From: Microvenator marinus
GTDB taxonomy: Bacteria > Myxococcota_A > Bradymonadia > Bradymonadales > Bradymonadaceae
DNA length: 64,000 nt
NCBI RefSeq assembly: GCF_007993755.1
Contig: NZ_CP042467.1
Coordinates: 4,922,001-4,986,000, forward strand
Direction: 5' to 3'
Part shown: one piece after another, positions 6,194 to 34,326 of the stretch
Position numbering within the stretch: position 1 is the first letter of the stretch
How the letters are laid out: each line of letters starts with the position of its first letter
Program-made: the position numbers and the translations under genes
Notes under the pieces: generated by a model
The model's database searches: none
Told to the model about the DNA's origin: nothing
The model's input: the letters and a program-made list of their open reading frames with translations, nothing else

Positions 6194-7825
6194 TCACCAG
6201 TTCCTAGGTGATTGATGCGTCTCAGTGTCGTCACCAACGGGCTTGAGGTTGAGAACCCGATAAATATCTACATGCTCGAGCTTACCCTTCAATTTGGTTG
6301 GCGGAAGTTTTTCGAGGTCGAATAAAAATCCAACTTCTCTGAAGGTGTTTTCGCCTATCAAGACGTCTTGGGGGCCGGCCGTGCTGCAGAAGCGTGCCGC
6401 AGTGTTTACGGTGTCACCCATCACCGTATAGTTCATGCTCTTGGTAGAACCCATATAGCCCGCCACAACCTCGCCAGTATTCAGCCCGATGCCGATCTCG
6501 AACCCCACGTTCCCCGAGAGATCTTGCGCTTCGTTGAACCGCCGCATGGCCTGTTGCATCTCTACCGCCGCCCGCACCGCACGTTCGGTGTCGTCAGGTC
6601 TTGTAATCGGAGCGCCCCAAACAGCCATAATTTCATCGCCGACGAACTTATCGAGCGTGCCCTCGTACTTGAAGATGATGTCCACCATCAGCTCAAAATA
6701 TTCGTTCAAGAGATTAACCACCTCTTGAGGAGGCATGCGCTCGGAAATCGTCGTAAACCCACGGATATCGGCGAACATCACGGTGGCCCGCCTTAGCTCG
6801 CCGCCTTTCTTAATATCGAGTCGGCCCGAGACCACTTCTTCCACAAGTTGAGGCGAGAGAAGTCGGTGCAATTTCTCACGCATCACGACCTGGCTTTCGA
6901 ACTCGGTCAGCAGTCGCTGGTGCCTAATCATGAGCGCCGCTTGACGCGCAAATCCCGAGAGCACCTGAAGGTCCTTTTCCATAAAGGCGCCAGATGCGAT
7001 TTTGGAGTCGAGGTGGATGACTCCCAAAACCTCGTCGTCGTGCATCAGGGGGACTGTCATGGTGGAGCGAATCTGTTCCAGGATAATCGAGTGCGAGCCC
7101 GCAAACCTCGAGTCCATCATGGCGTCGGACGAAAGGAGGCCCTGTTTCTCTTCCATGATTTCGCTCAGAATCGTCTGCGAAATCCGCACATTCTCAATAT
7201 TGGCTTCTCCGCCACGAGCCTTGACGACCATGGGCACCAAAGTGGCACTCTCAGCCTCTTTGAGTAGGATCACGCCACGGTCGGCTGGGAAAATCTCAAA
7301 CGCCTTGTCCAAGATCTTGTCGAGCAAGACTTCCAAGTCCATCTCGAGACCGATGGCCTGATTGAGCTCATAGGAGATTCGCAGCTTTTCGTAGTCTTGG
7401 CGAAGGTGCCTCTCATCTTCGACGTTTCCTTCGGGCAGGAATCGGCCTTCGTCTCGCGATGCCACTCGTCCGCGGATATGGGTGTCCATATTCCCGGCCA
7501 TGATGGTCACGCGGCCAGCCAAGGGGTCAGTTTTCATCTCTTCCGAGAAAACTATCTCACTCGAGCCGATGGTAATTCGGTCCCCATTTCGCAATTCCGA
7601 GCGTGTTTCAACGAGTTTGCCATTGACGAACGTACCGTTTCGGCTGCCTGCATCGCGCACGAAATAGCGGCCCGTCGCGTCTTTCTCCACGATGGAATGT
7701 TGCTTGGAGACAACTCGGTCGAGGACCTGTAAGTCTTGGTCTGGGTGCCGGCCCACGGTGGCCTGGTGCCCAAGCGTGACTTCGTGTACACGCCCTCTGC
7801 TATCTACGTAGGTAAGTTTTGCCAT
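6194..7825 (-). CDS. FHA-GAF-adenylate/guanylate cyclase
   Basis: A soluble class III nucleotide cyclase of 543 residues. An FHA domain comes first (about 1-95: TVGRHPDQDL, VSKQHS, GSRNGTFVNG), then a GAF sensor domain (about 150-315), then the cyclase domain (about 345-525). The cyclase has both metal-binding aspartates (VMFADIRGF and GDEIMAVWG) and GDTVNTAARF. Its product is probably cAMP. The FHA domain should bind a phosphothreonine protein, which links cyclase activity to the neighbouring kinases. The frame extends to 7879, but ATG 7825 begins directly with the FHA fold and is preferred. It is divergent from the sigma54 activator at 7925. Confidence 0.92.
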   Translation of the reverse strand: MAKLTYVDSRGRVHEVTLGHQATVGRHPDQDLQVLDRVVSKQHSIVEKDATGRYFVRDAGSRNGTFVNGKLVETRSELRNGDRITIGSSEIVFSEEMKTDPLAGRVTIMAGNMDTHIRGRVASRDEGRFLPEGNVEDERHLRQDYEKLRISYELNQAIGLEMDLEVLLDKILDKAFEIFPADRGVILLKEAESATLVPMVVKARGGEANIENVRISQTILSEIMEEKQGLLSSDAMMDSRFAGSHSIILEQIRSTMTVPLMHDDEVLGVIHLDSKIASGAFMEKDLQVLSGFARQAALMIRHQRLLTEFESQVVMREKLHRLLSPQLVEEVVSGRLDIKKGGELRRATVMFADIRGFTTISERMPPQEVVNLLNEYFELMVDIIFKYEGTLDKFVGDEIMAVWGAPITRPDDTERAVRAAVEMQQAMRRFNEAQDLSGNVGFEIGIGLNTGEVVAGYMGSTKSMNYTVMGDTVNTAARFCSTAGPQDVLIGENTFREVGFLFDLEKLPPTKLKGKLEHVDIYRVLNLKPVGDDTETHQSPRNW

Positions 7826-16151: not shown

Positions 16152-18029
16152 ATGAAGCAAATACGCGTCGTTGATAACTTCGGCAAAGAGTACTTCTATC
16201 CCGTAGAGCAGGCTGTAGCCGAAATATCGATCGGACGAAGTCAGAATAACGATATCATCTTGGGGTCAAAAACCGTCAGCCGACGGCACGCCACCATCAA
16301 GGTGATGGGCGATCGTATCCTTCTTGTGAATCAGTCGGCCAATGGATGTATGGTCAACGGCGAGCGCGTCGATCGCGTCCGTGAAATGCGGCTCGGAGAG
16401 GCGGCTCAGATCGATATCTACATGGTCAGTGTGGAAGGACCGGGCGCCCAATCAGGCGCGTCTGCTCCGATCTCCCCTGTCTCTCGATCTGCACAGGTCT
16501 CGGAGACGGGTCAGAGCATTAGACCGGCCATTTCCCCGACACCGAGGCCGAGCGGTCCATCGTCGCAATCGCAACCGCAGCCAACGTCTGCGCCGTTGCC
16601 GAAGCGTCACTCGCACGGTCGAGACATGGGAACGCGCGAGCTTCGGTCCAATGATCCCGAAGATGTACGAAACTTCCTCGGCTTCCTTGCGCCGGATGCA
16701 CAGCCTCCTGAGCCGCGCATCAGCCTCACGGGTACTAAGGTGGAGATGCTTCCTAGGGAGCAGCGAAACGAAATCATTCGCTTCAAGCATCAACTCCACG
16801 AAGAACTCAAAGAAAGGCTCGACCTCCACTCCTTTGAGATTACTGACTACGCGTCTCCTCGAGTGGTTCGCCAGGTCTCTGAAAAGCTCAAAGAGTTGCT
16901 TCAAATTCACGGCCACCTCATTCCGCCACCATTTACCAAAGAAGGCGTCTTCAAGGATTTGATGGACGACGTGTGTGGCTTGGGCGCGATCGAGGACCTG
17001 ATCAAACACCGCAAAGTGACCGAGGTCATGGTTGTGGATCGCGAGCATATCTACGCGGAGATGGGCGGAAAGCTGATTCTCACAGACCGATTCTTTAACG
17101 ACGAAAAAGCGATGATGACGGTCATCGAGCGTATCGTGATTCCTCGCGGCCGTCGTATCGATGAATCGACTCCGCTGGTTGATACTCGTTTGGCTGACGG
17201 ATCTCGCGTTAATGCCGTGATTCCTCCGCTTGCGCTTAAAGACCCGTGCTTGACCATTCGTAAGTTCCCTGAGGATCGCCTCGGTATTGGCGATCTCATC
17301 AAGTTTCAGTCCTTGACCCCGGAAATGGGTAAGTTCCTCGCCCGTGCAGTTCGTGGGCGTAAGAACATCATCATTTCGGGTGGTACAGGGTCCGGTAAGA
17401 CCACGCTCTTGAACGTGCTCTCGTCCTTCATCGGGCCCACAGAACGTGTTGTGACCATCGAAGATGCGGCCGAGCTACAGCTTCAGCAGGAACACGTGGT
17501 GAGTCTCGAGACCAAACCTCCGAACTTGGAAGGTAAAGGAGCGATCGAGATCCGTGACCTCGTGAAAAATGCGCTCCGGATGCGTCCTGACCGAATTGTG
17601 GTCGGTGAGTGTCGAAGTGGTGAAGCACTCGACATGTTGCAGGCCATGAACACCGGTCACGACGGGTCCATGACAACCGTTCACTCGAATAGCCCTATTG
17701 AGGCCATTTCTCGCCTCGAAACCCTGGTTCTGATGAGTGGTATGGAGCTCCCGACACGCGCGATTCGTGAGCAAATTGCCAACTCGGTGAACATCATCGT
17801 TCAGCAGTCTCGCTTCAGTGACGGGTCTCGCCGCGTCACCTATATCTCAGAGGTAGTCGGGATCGACGATGACGGTTTTGTGCACATTGAGGATATTTAT
17901 CGCTACAAGCAGACGGGCATTGACGAGAAAAACAAAGTGCAGGGATATCACCTCGCGACGGGCTATCTTCCTACGTTTGTGCAGGAATTTATCGTGAAAG
18001 GATTGGCCACAGCAGAAGACTTCTTCTAG
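16152..18029 (+). CDS. cpaF: FHA-CpaF fusion, Tad secretion ATPase
   Basis: 625 residues. The cytoplasmic hexameric ATPase that powers Tad pilin export is present from about residue 205 onward, with Walker [13 protein letters not shown] (Lys near 416), [16 protein letters not shown] and [12 protein letters not shown]. The usual CpaF has 450-500 residues; here an FHA domain is fused in front (about 1-95: [29 protein letters not shown]) with a Ser/Pro-rich linker to about 155. The FHA domain should bind phosphothreonine proteins, which would let kinases control secretion. Its start is 3 bases after the cpaC stop. A second cpaF without FHA lies at 33.2 kb. Confidence 0.94.
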
Positions 18030-19956: not shown

Positions 19957-21333
19957 ATGTCGTTTTGGTTAGAGCATGAACAGGATGGGCAGCGTCAAAA
20001 GTACACGTTTGACACGCCCAGCATCTCCATCGGTCGTGACCAGAGCGCAGATTTCGTGCTCGATCACCCGACCGTTTCCCGTCAGCATGCGCGCATTGTA
20101 GGGCAGGGCGGCGCGTATCGTCTTGTTGTCCTTTCAAAAGGCGGACTCACTGCGATCAATGGATCTGCAGTCAGTGGAGAAGTCGCTCTTAGTGACGGAA
20201 ACGCCCTTCAGATAGGGCAGTTTTCCTTCGTGTTCCGCGCCGACGCTCCTTCATACGCTCAACCAAATAGTCAGCCAGGCTTTGGCGGTTTTGGTGCGCC
20301 ACCTTCATCGAGTGGCTTTGGTGCCCCTCCCGCTTCTGGTGGATTCGGCACTCCTCCCGCTTCTGGTGGATTCGGAGCACCCCCTGCCTCAGGCGGTTTT
20401 GGAGCCCCTCCCGCGTCTGGTGGTTTTGGCGCACCTCCCGCACCGAGCGGCTTTGGTGCCCCTCCGGCGTCAGGTGGATTTAATCAGCCGGCAAGTCCAC
20501 CCAGTGGATTCGGAACGCCACCTTCATCTGGTGGCTTTGGAACTGCACCGCCTGCTTCGGGCGGATTTGGACAGCCATCGGGTTTTGGACAGCCATCGGG
20601 TTTTGGCCAGCCTGCGTCTTCTCCCGGTCAACCCGCTCCTCCACGCGACGACAACCACATCACTTCGTGGGATGAAATCGCTCAGAGCGCGGATGCCATG
20701 GGGGAAAAGGAGGTTGCTGAGACGGATTTCCAGAGGCTTGAGGCAGCGCAGAAGAAAGCTACCGAAAAGTCTCAGCGCACGAATCCACTTCTCATTCTCG
20801 TGGTCTTGGCCGCCGTAGGTGGGACTGGATGGTTCGTATTTGGTGACGGGCCGAAACAAAAAGCGGAAACCAGCCAAGAGATTAGCGAGACTGAGCCTTT
20901 GCGCTTCCAGGGTAGCGAAGTCGATTGTGTGGGCGCAGCCGAGTGCACGGAGCGAGCGACCAACGAGTTCCGTGTGGCCGAACAATTGTCTCAAAAGATC
21001 GAAGTGGATATTCGAAACCGATTCGATGCTTACTTCAAGTATGAGTTGGCGCTTGCCCTTCTCGAGAAAGGCGGTGTGGATCCGATACCGCCACAGTTTG
21101 CCAGTCTGAAGACGAATCGCGACAAGCTCCGTACCGAGTTGGATACAATTTTCCAGCAGCGGCGCGTCAGATACCACGACCTTTCGAAGCGTAAAATGTA
21201 CCGAGAGATGGTGGCTATCCTGAATGAAGTTCAGGCTATTTTCCCCTACAAGGGCGCGAGAGAGAATATCTGGGCGGTCAAACTTGAGCGCGATCTCAAG
21301 GATCAGAACCTCTATCCCATGACCCCGTATTGA
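19957..21333 (+). CDS. FHA-domain membrane protein with Gly-Phe-Gly repeat linker
   Basis: 458 residues. An FHA domain at about 1-95 (SIGRDQSADFVL, VSRQHARIV) is followed by a disordered region of tandem GFGAPPASG units (about 108-230), a single membrane helix (NPLLILVVLAAVGGTGWFVFG, about 272-292) and a helical C-terminal domain (about 320-458). The FHA part should be cytoplasmic and the C-terminal part periplasmic, so it could pass a phosphothreonine signal to the secretion machine. It sits between tadC and the TPR lipoprotein with gaps of only 15 and 2 bases. No known Tad component has this architecture; its role is inferred from position. Confidence 0.85.
   Translation: MSFWLEHEQDGQRQKYTFDTPSISIGRDQSADFVLDHPTVSRQHARIVGQGGAYRLVVLSKGGLTAINGSAVSGEVALSDGNALQIGQFSFVFRADAPSYAQPNSQPGFGGFGAPPSSSGFGAPPASGGFGTPPASGGFGAPPASGGFGAPPASGGFGAPPAPSGFGAPPASGGFNQPASPPSGFGTPPSSGGFGTAPPASGGFGQPSGFGQPSGFGQPASSPGQPAPPRDDNHITSWDEIAQSADAMGEKEVAETDFQRLEAAQKKATEKSQRTNPLLILVVLAAVGGTGWFVFGDGPKQKAETSQEISETEPLRFQGSEVDCVGAAECTERATNEFRVAEQLSQKIEVDIRNRFDAYFKYELALALLEKGGVDPIPPQFASLKTNRDKLRTELDTIFQQRRVRYHDLSKRKMYREMVAILNEVQAIFPYKGARENIWAVKLERDLKDQNLYPMTPY
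20279..20625 (+). repeat. GFG(A/T)PPASG coding tandem repeat
   Basis: About a dozen imperfect 27-base units encode a linker of Gly-Phe-Gly-(Ala/Thr)-Pro-Pro-(Ala/Ser)-Ser-Gly. Codons vary between copies, so it is a maintained low-complexity linker rather than a recent expansion. The only exact repeat is near the 3' end (CAGCCATCGGGTTTTGGA twice). The FG-rich composition could allow weak self-association. Confidence 0.85.
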
Positions 21334-30425: not shown

Positions 30426-31214
30426 TCACCAGAGGTCGATTTCGCCCTTCTTGCGCGGATCTTCTTTTTTCTTAGCGGGGGCGCGTTTGATCACGCGCTT
30501 TCTGACAGGAGCACTTCTTCTTGGCTTTGCTTTCGTCTTTCGGGCTTCTAGAGCGTTGACGAAGCTTTCTTCGATCAAAAAGATCTCCGAGTTAAACCCG
30601 AGTCCAACCTCAAAGGTCGGATTTTCAGGAATCGGTAGAATGGGATCTTTGAGGGGATCTACGGAAGGGGTCTTGATGCTGAACTTGACTTTGGTCTCTG
30701 GCACGCCAACAAACACGATATGTGCTTGGCCCATGTCGTCTGTCCGCCCGATCTCTTCACCATCCTTCAGGACAGGTAGGTTTTCGCAGAATGTAGAGTC
30801 GATCATCTTCGGGTCGCAATTTGCTGATACCCAAACCATGTATTCTTTCTTCTGAGACTCGAACGACGCGTTTAGAGCTACCGGTACACCTAGGCCCGAG
30901 CTCGTAAGTCGAAGGGACTCCGTCACGGATTCATCACTCATTAAGCGGTATCCGGAGAGAGTTCCAATTCCGAGTGTGACGCTTGCACCGGGACGCTCCG
31001 TAAGCATCGCTTCAAACTTGCCGTCTTGGTCGGTGTAGCCGATGACTTTGCCGTCCACGAGGACTGGCGCCAGCGGAACTGGCCCACCGGGCTCAGTGGC
31101 AGACACTTCGAGACGGAAATCTTTCATTGGAGGGGGCGGTGGGGGCCCTTCATCTCCGCATCCCAATAGTGGGGACGTCATGGCGATCAATAGTGAAATG
31201 GCGAGTGTTCTCAT
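30426..31214 (-). CDS. Lipoprotein with beta domains and basic C-terminus
   Basis: 262 residues with the lipobox LLGC and a Pro run (PPPPPP). Two similar segments follow, each containing DGK/DGEEIG(R/Y)TDxxG (about 45-62 and 145-160), as in PEGA or carboxypeptidase-regulatory-like beta domains. The end is strongly basic (KTKAKPRRSAPVRKRVIKRA). It sits directly downstream of the pseudokinase gene (24-base gap). Such PEGA-like proteins often accompany kinases. The basic tail could bind nucleic acid or cell-envelope polymers; function unknown. Confidence 0.75.
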   Translation of the reverse strand: MRTLAISLLIAMTSPLLGCGDEGPPPPPPMKDFRLEVSATEPGGPVPLAPVLVDGKVIGYTDQDGKFEAMLTERPGASVTLGIGTLSGYRLMSDESVTESLRLTSSGLGVPVALNASFESQKKEYMVWVSANCDPKMIDSTFCENLPVLKDGEEIGRTDDMGQAHIVFVGVPETKVKFSIKTPSVDPLKDPILPIPENPTFEVGLGFNSEIFLIEESFVNALEARKTKAKPRRSAPVRKRVIKRAPAKKKEDPRKKGEIDLW

Positions 31215-31238: not shown

Positions 31239-33188
31239 CTATGGACTCGGTTCTTCAGTTCGTTCGACTTTAACGGCCTTAAGCAGCTTGTTTCTATTGA
31301 AGAATCCTTGCTGATCCGCACCTGGGTCGATCTTACTAAGTTGCTGATAATAGAGCCGTGCGGCGCTAATCTTATCGTCCTTGATGGAGTTCCGAACTTG
31401 CTCAACCGATTCCTTTCGGATCTCCTTAACGAGCGAGGCGTCATAAAGATCTTCGATAAATTTCTTATCTTCATCGGTGAGTTCGGAATAGCGAATGGCT
31501 TCTGCCATCTTCTCAAGTGCGATGCTGTATTGCTCTTGTTGAGACTTTCTGGTCAGACGATTGATGCCCTTGACGGCCTCTTGTGCAACTTTCCTCGCAT
31601 TATCAGCGCGCTCTTGGTCTTTCTCAACAGGGGCATCTGCCGTTTCTTCTGGAGGCAGCGGGTTGGTCTCATAACTGAGTGTAACCGCGACTCTCGGGTC
31701 TGTCTCTTTGGCCAGACCCTCGGGAAGCCCTGGCTTTGGGTCTTCGGCCGGAGCGTCTTCCCCTGCGGCGTTCTCGGTATTTGGCGTTGGCTCTTCCAGG
31801 TTATCTGGCGGCGCAACTGCGATATCCGGCCCGGCAACAGGCTTGGGCTTCGGCTTCTGCTGAGAAACGTATCCGATGCCTAAGACGAGAACTGCGATTA
31901 GGGCAAAGACTCCAATTCCCACCTTCATGCGGTGTTCCGGTGGAATCCCCTTGATACCTTTACCTCCCGAGCCTTTTTGTGGAGCAAGAGCCGCCGCAAA
32001 ATCAGCCGGCGTCGCGATCCTCTGTGCAGGATCTTGCTGAAGCCCTTGAATACAAGCACCCGAGAACGGTGCCGGCAGCTGGGGCGTAATAGCCAGATTG
32101 AGCGGGTAGCCGGAGAGCATGGCCACACAAACAGCAGCCAAGCTGTAGACGTCCGTTGCGGGATAAACCTGACGCTGCTGCGGAGGAATATTGAGTTCTG
32201 GTGGCCCAAAGGGCCCGAGATTCCCTCGATCTTGGAACGCCACGATGTCGAAGGGTTCGATCATGATGTTTCCATCATCCTGAACCCAGACAGAATCGGT
32301 GGTGAGGTTTGCGTAAACAAACTGGAACTGGTGGATATGAGCCAGCGCCTGCGCGATTTGATTGACCCACTGAACCACGAGTTCGGGGTTCTGCGGGCCG
32401 TTCTGCGCGAGCACGTTCGTAAGCTGATAGCCAGACGGCATGGGCATTTCCACCCAGGCACCAGACGGGCTAGCCAACATCCCAGTAATACCCAAAAGGT
32501 GGGGATGTTTGATCTGGTCGAGCATCATGCAGCGTTGGCTGATCTCAAAAGGCATGGTGTTTACGTCCCCCTCCCAAATTCGCTTGAGCACGACTTGGCG
32601 GCCCATCCTGTTCTGGGCGAAAATCAGCGTGAGCTCACCAGACTGGATGTTTTCAGGGCCATACGCATACTCTTGTTTGAGTACCGGGTCGTTTTCGACG
32701 GAGTTCGAGTTCGAGACTCCAGCCCCTGCTTGCAAGGCATTGATATCGACAAATTGAGTATTCTGTTCGCTTGGAGCAGGCGCACCGGCCGCTAACTCGG
32801 CGATATTCAGGAATTGGGTCGCCCCTTCAGGCTCCTGCGATTGACCGATCACAAGCCCCGGACTCGAGCCGGGCTGAGCATAGCCACCGCTTTGGGGAGG
32901 CTGCCCGTATCCACCACTTTGTGGAGGCTGCCCGTAACCGCCGCTTTGAGGGCCGTGCCCTTGGACTTGAACACCTGGACCTGCGCCGGAAGGTTTTGGG
33001 TTTCCGTACGCGTCGATCGAGAACATTTCGGTCGCTTCATCTCCCGGGGCATCGTTCTGCATGGGAGGTAGCGAACTCAAATTTACCATCGCTGTAGCTT
33101 CATCGCCGAAGTCATCATCTTCGAATTGGCGTTGATTCTGGCGATCAATGAGGCTTTTGCGTGCCTGTTTGAACCGGTCTTCTGACAT
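31239..33188 (-). CDS. Transmembrane pseudokinase with four FHA-ligand-like motifs
   Basis: 649 residues. The disordered N-terminal arm (1-175) has four short Thr motifs: ATAMV (Thr32), ATEMF (Thr53), ATQFL (Thr124) and NTQFV (Thr144), with SGGYGQPPQ repeats between them. The kinase-like domain (about 180-400) keeps the lysine (VVLKRI) but lacks the HRD catalytic Asp (YANLTTDSVW) and has no DFG (IEPFDIV), so it is probably inactive. A membrane helix (VGIGVFALIAVLVLGIGYV) and a Pro/Glu-rich periplasmic region with a helical end follow. It lies between a CpaF ATPase gene and a lipoprotein gene. A scaffold that recruits FHA proteins is inferred. Confidence 0.85.
   Translation of the reverse strand: MSEDRFKQARKSLIDRQNQRQFEDDDFGDEATAMVNLSSLPPMQNDAPGDEATEMFSIDAYGNPKPSGAGPGVQVQGHGPQSGGYGQPPQSGGYGQPPQSGGYAQPGSSPGLVIGQSQEPEGATQFLNIAELAAGAPAPSEQNTQFVDINALQAGAGVSNSNSVENDPVLKQEYAYGPENIQSGELTLIFAQNRMGRQVVLKRIWEGDVNTMPFEISQRCMMLDQIKHPHLLGITGMLASPSGAWVEMPMPSGYQLTNVLAQNGPQNPELVVQWVNQIAQALAHIHQFQFVYANLTTDSVWVQDDGNIMIEPFDIVAFQDRGNLGPFGPPELNIPPQQRQVYPATDVYSLAAVCVAMLSGYPLNLAITPQLPAPFSGACIQGLQQDPAQRIATPADFAAALAPQKGSGGKGIKGIPPEHRMKVGIGVFALIAVLVLGIGYVSQQKPKPKPVAGPDIAVAPPDNLEEPTPNTENAAGEDAPAEDPKPGLPEGLAKETDPRVAVTLSYETNPLPPEETADAPVEKDQERADNARKVAQEAVKGINRLTRKSQQEQYSIALEKMAEAIRYSELTDEDKKFIEDLYDASLVKEIRKESVEQVRNSIKDDKISAARLYYQQLSKIDPGADQQGFFNRNKLLKAVKVERTEEPSP
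32876..32955 (-). repeat. SGGYGQPPQ coding repeat in the pseudokinase
   Basis: Three imperfect 27-base units encode QSGGYGQPP in the N-terminal arm of the pseudokinase. They are Gly/Tyr/Gln/Pro-rich and resemble the GFG linker of the FHA protein encoded at 20 kb, which supports a disordered, possibly sticky, arm. Confidence 0.75.
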
Positions 33189-33216: not shown

Positions 33217-34326
33217 TTAATGCCTCGGTGGTTTGAACCAGTTTTCGTCGTAATCTAGTCCACGCGTCTTAATATCATCGGCGAAAGTTGGAATATTTCC
33301 AAGAGCTTCCATTTGTCCGAGGACTTTTCCGGTGCCAGGCTCGTAGCCACGATGCTTGAATTCAAAGAGCGGATAAATTCTGTATTCGCCGATTTCATCG
33401 AGTCCAAGGCACTCCACAATATGCGTCAGCTTTCTCGAACCATCGTTGAATCGAGAAGTCTGAATGATGATATTGATGGCGGACGCCACCTGAGAGCGAA
33501 TCGCTTTGAGCGGCAGTTCCACCTCGGACATCATACACATGGTTTCCAAACGTCTCAACGTATCGTCCGGATAGGTGGCGTGAGTGGTAGACATTGAGCC
33601 ACCGTGACCGGAGGTCATGGCCTGAATCAGGTCGAGGGCCTCACCACCACGAATCTCACCGATGACCACGCGGTCTGGGCGCAAACGCATCGCGGAGCGG
33701 AAGAGGTCGCCGATTTCGACTTTGCCACGGCCCTTTGAGTCCGCCTGCCGCGCCTCGAGCATGAGTACGTGGGGCTGTTGGAGCTGTAGCTCGGTCGAGT
33801 CCTCGATCACAATGATGCGCTCAGCTGGGTCGATCAGGGTGGACACACAGTTCAGAAGCGAGGTTTTTCCAGATCCGGTACCGCCGGCGACCATGATATT
33901 CTTTTCCGAGTGCACGCAGCACTCGATGAATTTTGCGGCTTCGTGCGTAATCGAGCCGTAGCTGATGAGTTTGTCGATGGTCAGGTCGAACTTACCGAAT
34001 CGACGGATGGCAATCGAGACCCCGTTTCGAGCACAGGGTGGAATGATGACGTGAACACGACTCCCGTCTGGCAGACGCGCATCAAGTCGAGGGTTGAGTT
34101 CGTTGAGCGTCTTCCCAACGTACTGAGCGATGTTCTTGGCACCGCCCATCAAATCATCTTCGTTGTCGAAAACCGCCTCAGTCTTTTGAAGCTTACCCTT
34201 GACCTCGATCCAGATATCGTCGGGTCCATTGATCATGATCTCAGAGACGGAATCATCCTCAAGGTATGGCTGAATGCACTTGAAGTACCGTTTGATCGAC
34301 TGATCGAATATCTCTTTAGGGATCAT
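33217..34326 (-). CDS. Second CpaF-family secretion ATPase (no FHA domain)
   Basis: 369 residues with the complete catalytic core of the CpaF/TadA family: RLPDGSRVHVIIPP, Walker [13 protein letters not shown] (Lys154), RPDRVVIGEIRGGEALD and GHGGSMSTTHA. It lacks the FHA domain and long N-terminal part of the CpaF in the Tad cluster. No other pilus or secretion gene is adjacent. Instead it stands between ccmD-like genes and the pseudokinase. It could serve the same Tad platform as an alternative motor, or a different machine. Confidence 0.9.
   Translation of the reverse strand: MIPKEIFDQSIKRYFKCIQPYLEDDSVSEIMINGPDDIWIEVKGKLQKTEAVFDNEDDLMGGAKNIAQYVGKTLNELNPRLDARLPDGSRVHVIIPPCARNGVSIAIRRFGKFDLTIDKLISYGSITHEAAKFIECCVHSEKNIMVAGGTGSGKTSLLNCVSTLIDPAERIIVIEDSTELQLQQPHVLMLEARQADSKGRGKVEIGDLFRSAMRLRPDRVVIGEIRGGEALDLIQAMTSGHGGSMSTTHATYPDDTLRRLETMCMMSEVELPLKAIRSQVASAINIIIQTSRFNDGSRKLTHIVECLGLDEIGEYRIYPLFEFKHRGYEPGTGKVLGQMEALGNIPTFADDIKTRGLDYDENWFKPPRH

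Follow-up and report, generated by a model that had tools for sequence, protein, structure and literature searches.

The question raised by this locus is what a kinase-like membrane protein that has lost its catalytic motifs might do with a long disordered arm in which a short threonine motif is repeated. The protein, PSK, is encoded within the window, the 64,000-nucleotide stretch of Microvenator marinus DNA that was analysed. A sequence-only reading of the window had suggested that active kinases phosphorylate the arm and that PSK then scaffolds FHA proteins. PSK and its parts are located as follows.

31239..33188, minus strand: PSK, a pseudokinase and putative scaffold protein of 649 residues, comprising a disordered arm, a pseudokinase domain, one transmembrane helix and a helical C-terminal domain
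33135..33179, minus strand: conserved N-terminal segment MS[ED]DRFKQARxSLxDR (residues 4–18; here MSDDRFKQARRSLIDR), a low-confidence helix in the AlphaFold2 model
31974..32705, minus strand: pseudokinase domain (residues 162–405), with pLDDT of about 90, best Foldseek matches to PknA/PknB and catalytic motifs lost in all orthologues
31863..31937, minus strand: transmembrane helix (residues 418–442), located from the sequence and the AlphaFold2 model
31293..31616, minus strand: C-terminal helical domain (residues 525–632) in the AlphaFold2 model, which we infer to be extracytoplasmic

The kinase-like domain of PSK is matched by the Pfam Pkinase profile (4.5e-12) and by PknA and PknB in Foldseek with E-values of about 1e-11 or better. 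Nineteen PSK orthologues were found, all in the same family as the window genome, and 17 of them, which are 33–47% identical to the window protein, were aligned with it to give 18 sequences; counts on the arm refer to 20 arms, the window included. The HRD Asp is missing in 18/18 aligned sequences, mostly with Asn in its place, and DFG is replaced by EPFD, which is invariant in the same 18/18. Given its kinase fold and the loss of both the HRD Asp and the DFG Asp, PSK is a conserved pseudokinase, in agreement with the sequence-only reading. The disordered arm described in that reading is also borne out, with pLDDT values below 50 for residues 21–161 in an AlphaFold2 model built with 18 sequences. 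The conserved segment at residues 4–18 probably represents an additional docking or membrane element. A search of genome contigs with the single PSK protein returned no match. The orthologue-profile search of these contigs returned 15 loci, many of which are records already in the set, and the named relatives include Lujinxingia vulgaris and a Bradymonadaceae MAG.

Four threonine motifs had been proposed in the arm, and all four are present at the proposed places in the ORF at 31239-33188 (minus strand), namely T32, T53, T124 and T144, within 32733-33104.

33069..33104, minus strand: motif 1, DEATAMVNLSSL (Thr32), with Thr in 18/18 aligned sequences
33006..33041, minus strand: motif 2, DEATEMFSIDAY (Thr53), with Thr in 13/14 sequences that have a residue in the column
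32793..32828, minus strand: motif 3, EGATQFLNIAEL (Thr124), with Thr in 17/17 sequences that have a residue there
32733..32768, minus strand: motif 4, EQNTQFVDINAL (Thr144), with Thr and Phe at +2 in 18/18 sequences

The exception at motif 2 comes from L002 and appears to be an alignment shift, because DDATEMINVNDA stands elsewhere in the L002 arm. The first 172 residues of PSK contain exactly four Thr residues, every one of which lies inside a motif. With the motif defined as T-x-[FML]-[VFLIM] lacking Pro at +1 or +4, the window arm has four instances against a mean of 0.055 in shuffled arms (0/100,000 shuffles reached four), and the 20 arms contain 72 instances against 1.8 ± 1.3, the shuffles serving as a yardstick for the counts rather than as a significance test. 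Most arms carry three to five copies, and the L013 arm carries two. As the orthologues are related, these counts describe conservation and not independent events.

The motif instances share the consensus [DE]-[GED]-x-T-[QAE]-[FML]-[VFI]-[DNE]-[ILV]-x-x-[LF]. Upstream of the Thr, D/E is found at −3 in 62 of the 72 instances and G/E/D at −2 in 70. Downstream, Q/A/E occupies +1 in 66, D/N/E +4 in 66, I/L/V +5 in 69 and L/F +8 in 54; the residues at +2 (F/M/L) and +3 (V/F/I/L) are demanded by the search pattern. Retention of the Thr and +3 residues in an otherwise drifting arm, which had been named as the check on the sequence-only reading, is clearly observed, with a mean identity to the window sequence of 51% in the motif columns and 26% in the rest of the arm. 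Both residues are conserved, but the conserved pattern is longer than that pair and includes an acid at −3/−2 and hydrophobic residues at +2, +3, +5 and +8. Other short arm elements (PQFAPPPTMD, ITSSAPDYG and HFTPEQxxAGYDG) are found in most other genera (L003-L017) and are absent from the window genome.

The central position of the motif is restricted to Thr. Although the PSK arms contain 2.5 times as much Ser as Thr, no Ser equivalent of the motif is found in the 20 arms, against 3.9 expected. Thr precedes the [FML][VFLIM][DNSE] stretches of these arms by two residues in 70/80 cases, and the remaining 10 have Arg or Lys at this position. The motif has the features of an FHA ligand, being built on Thr and not Ser (72 versus 0), conserved and followed by V, F, I or L at +3. 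FHA domains tell pThr from pSer, and there is dispute over the pThr+3 rule (PMC4037201). The consistent absence of Ser from the PSK motifs fits FHA readers. The conserved residues at +2, +5 and +8 exceed known FHA reading and may form part of a motif for the kinase or for a second partner.

A partner of this kind could also bind without phosphorylation, if the motif is an amphipathic peptide with Thr as a helix N-cap that directly contacts another Tad component or the product of the adjoining gene.

33217..34326, minus strand: CpaF2, a CpaF/TadA-type ATPase of 369 residues without an FHA domain, which adjoins PSK wherever PSK is found with enough flank

The hydrophobic residues at +2, +5 and +8 could share one helical face. 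In the AlphaFold2 model, helices of low confidence begin close to motifs 3 and 4 (130–133 and 149–155), and CpaF2 is the immediate conserved neighbour, 73–84% identical. An N-cap would tolerate Ser, Asp and Asn, yet none of these occupies position 0 in the 80 stretches, and this explanation is considered unlikely. No motif docks onto the pseudokinase domain in the AlphaFold2 model, which is built without phosphate and in which the arm stays disordered.

The F-type form of the motif is concentrated in PSK. In 21 family genomes its DNA pattern gave 30 matches, nearly all in PSK, where a reversed control gave 1; in 57 class genomes it gave 31 matches, 28 of them in PSK, and the control gave 2. 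The three non-PSK matches look like chance, and the F-type motif appears to be essentially private to PSK in these 57 genomes. The M-type pattern led to an active transmembrane kinase (genome 1707593-1709707, minus strand), whose juxtamembrane linker carries DDGATQMLSAVDV and EGATEMVDISDV. This kinase was picked because it matched the motif, and its relatives provide the fairer test. One to six related motifs are found in 11/14 linkers from the kinase and its best relatives, and none in the other three; the 14 linkers hold 23 instances against 4.0 ± 1.9, and 3 Ser equivalents against 4.0. Across the 98 kinase linkers of the genome, the pattern acid-T-x-h-h occurs 25 times against 13.7 ± 3.5, and its Ser equivalent 10 times against 16.1; this genome-wide bias is confined to Thr and is weaker than that in the motif-bearing kinase family. 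Both the related Thr motifs in the linker of an active kinase and the Thr-only enrichment across kinase linkers argue further against a helix N-cap in PSK. The kinase at 1707593-1709707 is a candidate writer for the PSK arm, or may compete with it for the same readers. Active kinases, on which the sequence-only reading depended, are abundant in the window genome, with 123 Pkinase matches in 5.85 Mb.

A motif common to all kinases was considered and abandoned, since nearly all of the 30 top kinase loci lack the strict form. A divergent partner kinase was rejected as a motif family: it has the motif in its own genome, and its relatives are largely without it (3 versus 1.0). Further own-genome pattern matches, in HrcA-like and DNA polymerase III alpha-like frames (named by eye from the translation) and in stop-broken frames, were discarded.

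The resemblance of the PSK motifs to the kinase linker motifs could mean that the repeats form a multi-site kinase docking or pseudosubstrate arm, which would hold or inhibit an active kinase and recruit no FHA protein. The kinase-like fold joined to the arm might dimerise with active kinases. However, several copies conserved at the two ends of a long, length-variable arm fit multivalent docking better, and Thr at position 0 would be unnecessary in a pseudosubstrate; this role for the arm is judged very unlikely.

The three FHA proteins noted earlier in the window, a cyclase, a CpaF and a membrane protein, are confirmed by profile matches (E-values of 1.9e-19, 1.3e-15 and 6.4e-13).

16152..18029, plus strand: FHA-CpaF (KilF-like), a Tad motor ATPase with an N-terminal FHA domain and the favoured candidate reader
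16224..16418, plus strand: FHA domain of FHA-CpaF; 16/16 sequences retain its GR, SRRH and N residues
19957-21333: Tad-operon membrane FHA protein
20023..20217, plus strand: FHA domain of the Tad-operon membrane protein, with GR and SRxH kept and the Asn replaced (SKGGLTA)
7565..7759, minus strand: FHA domain of the FHA-GAF-cyclase, with GR, S, H and N intact

All three had been put forward as readers of the arm, and they differ in the integrity of their binding sites. FHA-CpaF keeps the binding-site Arg, Ser, His and Asn (GRS, SRRH and N) in every sequence compared, and the site of the FHA-GAF-cyclase is intact in the one sequence examined, the window's own. The Tad-operon membrane protein retains the Arg, Ser and His but has lost the Asn in 8/8 sequences (the window and seven relatives). 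This loss makes ordinary pThr reading improbable, and the membrane protein is probably not an ordinary pThr reader.

The genes on either side of PSK are conserved with it.

30426..31214, minus strand: putative lipoprotein and conserved PSK neighbour, so assigned because a Cys follows the leader

The order cpaF2-PSK-lipoprotein is kept in 15/15 relative regions with enough flank, usually followed by ccmE-ccmF, and PSK belongs to a conserved block of cytochrome c maturation (ccm) genes; a sixteenth region (L139) ends inside PSK. The identity of 73–84% in CpaF2 holds across the family regions, and PSK is much less conserved. The window Tad operon encodes RcpC, a secretin, FHA-CpaF, TadB, TadC, the FHA membrane protein, a TPR protein and Flp. 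FHA-CpaF lies 12–18 kb from PSK in a convergent orientation in 7/8 assessable genomes (G000, G004, G008, G010, G011, G013 and G016) and is not linked to PSK in the eighth (G007); in the remaining genomes, PSK and FHA-CpaF are on different contigs or one of them is missing. No clear orthologue of PSK, CpaF2 or FHA-CpaF was found in G003, which is 93% complete. PSK and CpaF2 are present in G012 (84% complete), and FHA-CpaF was not detected there. In a genome from another family of the class (G026), a CpaF2 homologue with 54% identity is located inside a Tad operon with an FHA-CpaF. The conserved linkage, the joint absence from G003 and the Tad-operon CpaF2 of G026 tie PSK to the Tad machine, a link made by gene neighbourhood only. 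The CpaF2 homologue of the other family stands at L308, 1290-2423, in the Tad operon.

Among the three window FHA proteins, FHA-CpaF is favoured as the reader because it combines conserved gene proximity with an invariant binding site. The window genome has 38 FHA matches and about 30 FHA ORFs, and with so many the reader of the PSK arm is not fixed by sequence. The arm could be phosphorylated and be read by an FHA protein that lies outside the window or is not part of the Tad machine, in which case the Tad link would be mere neighbourhood. The large FHA complement, the place of PSK in the ccm block and the genome that has PSK without a detected FHA-CpaF (G012) are compatible with such a reader. 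Against it, CpaF2, the conserved partner of PSK, also belongs to the CpaF-type motors and has a homologue in a Tad operon outside the family, FHA-CpaF shows convergent linkage in most assessable genomes, and PSK, CpaF2 and FHA-CpaF are missing together from G003. A reader outside the window or unconnected with the Tad machine is judged improbable.

The preferred reading is that PSK is a phosphorylated multi-site scaffold that recruits FHA proteins, probably FHA-CpaF, to the membrane, and a probability of roughly 0.55 is assigned to it. PSK would act as a catalytically dead, membrane-anchored scaffold whose disordered N-terminal arm displays a threonine docking motif, in most cases three to five times. 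The kinase at 1707593-1709707 is a candidate among the active Ser/Thr kinases that would phosphorylate the arm threonines. FHA domains would bind the resulting phosphothreonines, most plausibly that of FHA-CpaF, encoded 15 kb away, and possibly others. Binding would recruit or cluster the Tad motor at the inner membrane next to CpaF2. The scaffold is preferred because of the Thr-only rule, the predicted disorder, the multiplicity of the motif, the conserved FHA motor and the related motif that an active kinase has in its linker. The motif and its conservation, its restriction to Thr, the disorder prediction, the pseudokinase state, the gene linkage and the integrity of the FHA site are observed features; what we infer from them is that the arm is phosphorylated and bound, by which kinase and which reader, and with what output. 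G012, in which FHA-CpaF was not detected, and G007, in which it is unlinked, count against the scaffold.

The model resembles several known systems. The MviN pseudokinase of Mycobacterium tuberculosis is phosphorylated by PknB and recruits FhaA (PMC12599244). MviN (MurJ) is, like PSK in the model, a membrane protein with a dead kinase, to which an FHA protein binds once an active kinase has phosphorylated it (PMC12599244). The MviN site, however, lies in the C-terminal tail of the pseudokinase domain and regulates peptidoglycan synthesis, whereas the four PSK sites lie in a long N-terminal arm, and PSK lacks a MurJ part and is encoded beside a CpaF; Pfam and profile searches gave no match to a MurJ membrane domain in PSK, which has a single transmembrane helix. 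In type VIIb secretion, the EssC ATPase requires its FHA2 domain to associate with the EssB pseudokinase (PMC9436818). EssB/YukC, the partner of EssC/YukB, shares with PSK a cytoplasmic pseudokinase, one transmembrane helix and a helical domain across the membrane (PMC9436818, PMC12599244), and it is paired with an FHA-bearing ATPase as is proposed for PSK. The candidate ATPase of PSK differs in being a Tad/CpaF motor, and the PSK arm is built of Thr motifs, whereas EssB has no known phospho-site. No EssB match to PSK is present among the profile and Foldseek matches listed. PSK shares no evident homology with EssB or MviN beyond the kinase fold; it would work like MviN–FhaA and resembles the EssB–EssC architecture, and it appears to be a member of neither family.

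Disordered Thr motifs like those of the PSK arm are also found in GarA/OdhI and in the juxtamembrane regions of PknB/StkP, where they are phosphorylated by Ser/Thr kinases. GarA carries its own FHA domain and binds in cis. The PSK motif differs from that of GarA in being multi-copy and in belonging to a protein without an FHA domain. The phosphorylated juxtamembrane region of PknB binds FhaA (PMC12077195), and the motif of PknA-dependent sites in M. tuberculosis has upstream acids and a hydrophobic residue at +3 (PMC7164672). In the type VI secretion system (T6SS), Fha is reported to be recruited to a phosphothreonine on the membrane component TssL and to activate the secretion machine (PMC3953482), which parallels the proposed recruitment of an FHA protein to a membrane phosphothreonine in PSK; the machine there is a T6SS, which is not known to involve a pseudokinase.

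The closest counterpart of the window Tad operon is the Kil system of Myxococcus xanthus, which is Tad-like and has a motor ATPase, KilF, with an N-terminal FHA domain (PMC8460266). Kil systems are reported in Myxococcales, Bdellovibrionales and Bradymonadales; they involve many FHA proteins, and the signalling cascade upstream of their contact-dependent assembly is still to be defined (PMC8460266). The Kil-type Tad gene set, namely a CpaF with an N-terminal FHA domain, a secretin, RcpC, TadB, TadC and Flp, is present in the window. Descriptions of Kil include one ATPase and no pseudokinase, whereas here a pseudokinase accompanies the system and a second CpaF (CpaF2) is linked to the Tad locus and may serve the same machine. 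The host is probably a predatory bacterium. Tentatively, and with doubt prevailing, the PSK phosphothreonine scaffold might recruit a Kil-type FHA motor to the membrane as part of the missing signalling step from prey contact to assembly in Bradymonadales, with CpaF2 in the same machine.

If correct, the scaffold would extend the pairing of a pseudokinase and an FHA-fused ATPase to the Tad system of a Gram-negative bacterium; a pseudokinase–FHA theme in this setting is unreported as far as the open literature searched shows. The short conserved motif, the candidate kinase and the candidate reader with an invariant site make the question testable with peptides, and it bears on how FHA domains fused to pilus or secretion motors are addressed. 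Elsewhere in the genome, the region at 371613-390606 (L181) contains several FHA ORFs, an FHA-CpaF-like ATPase (373076-374800) and two kinases, and is possibly a second Tad/Kil-like locus.
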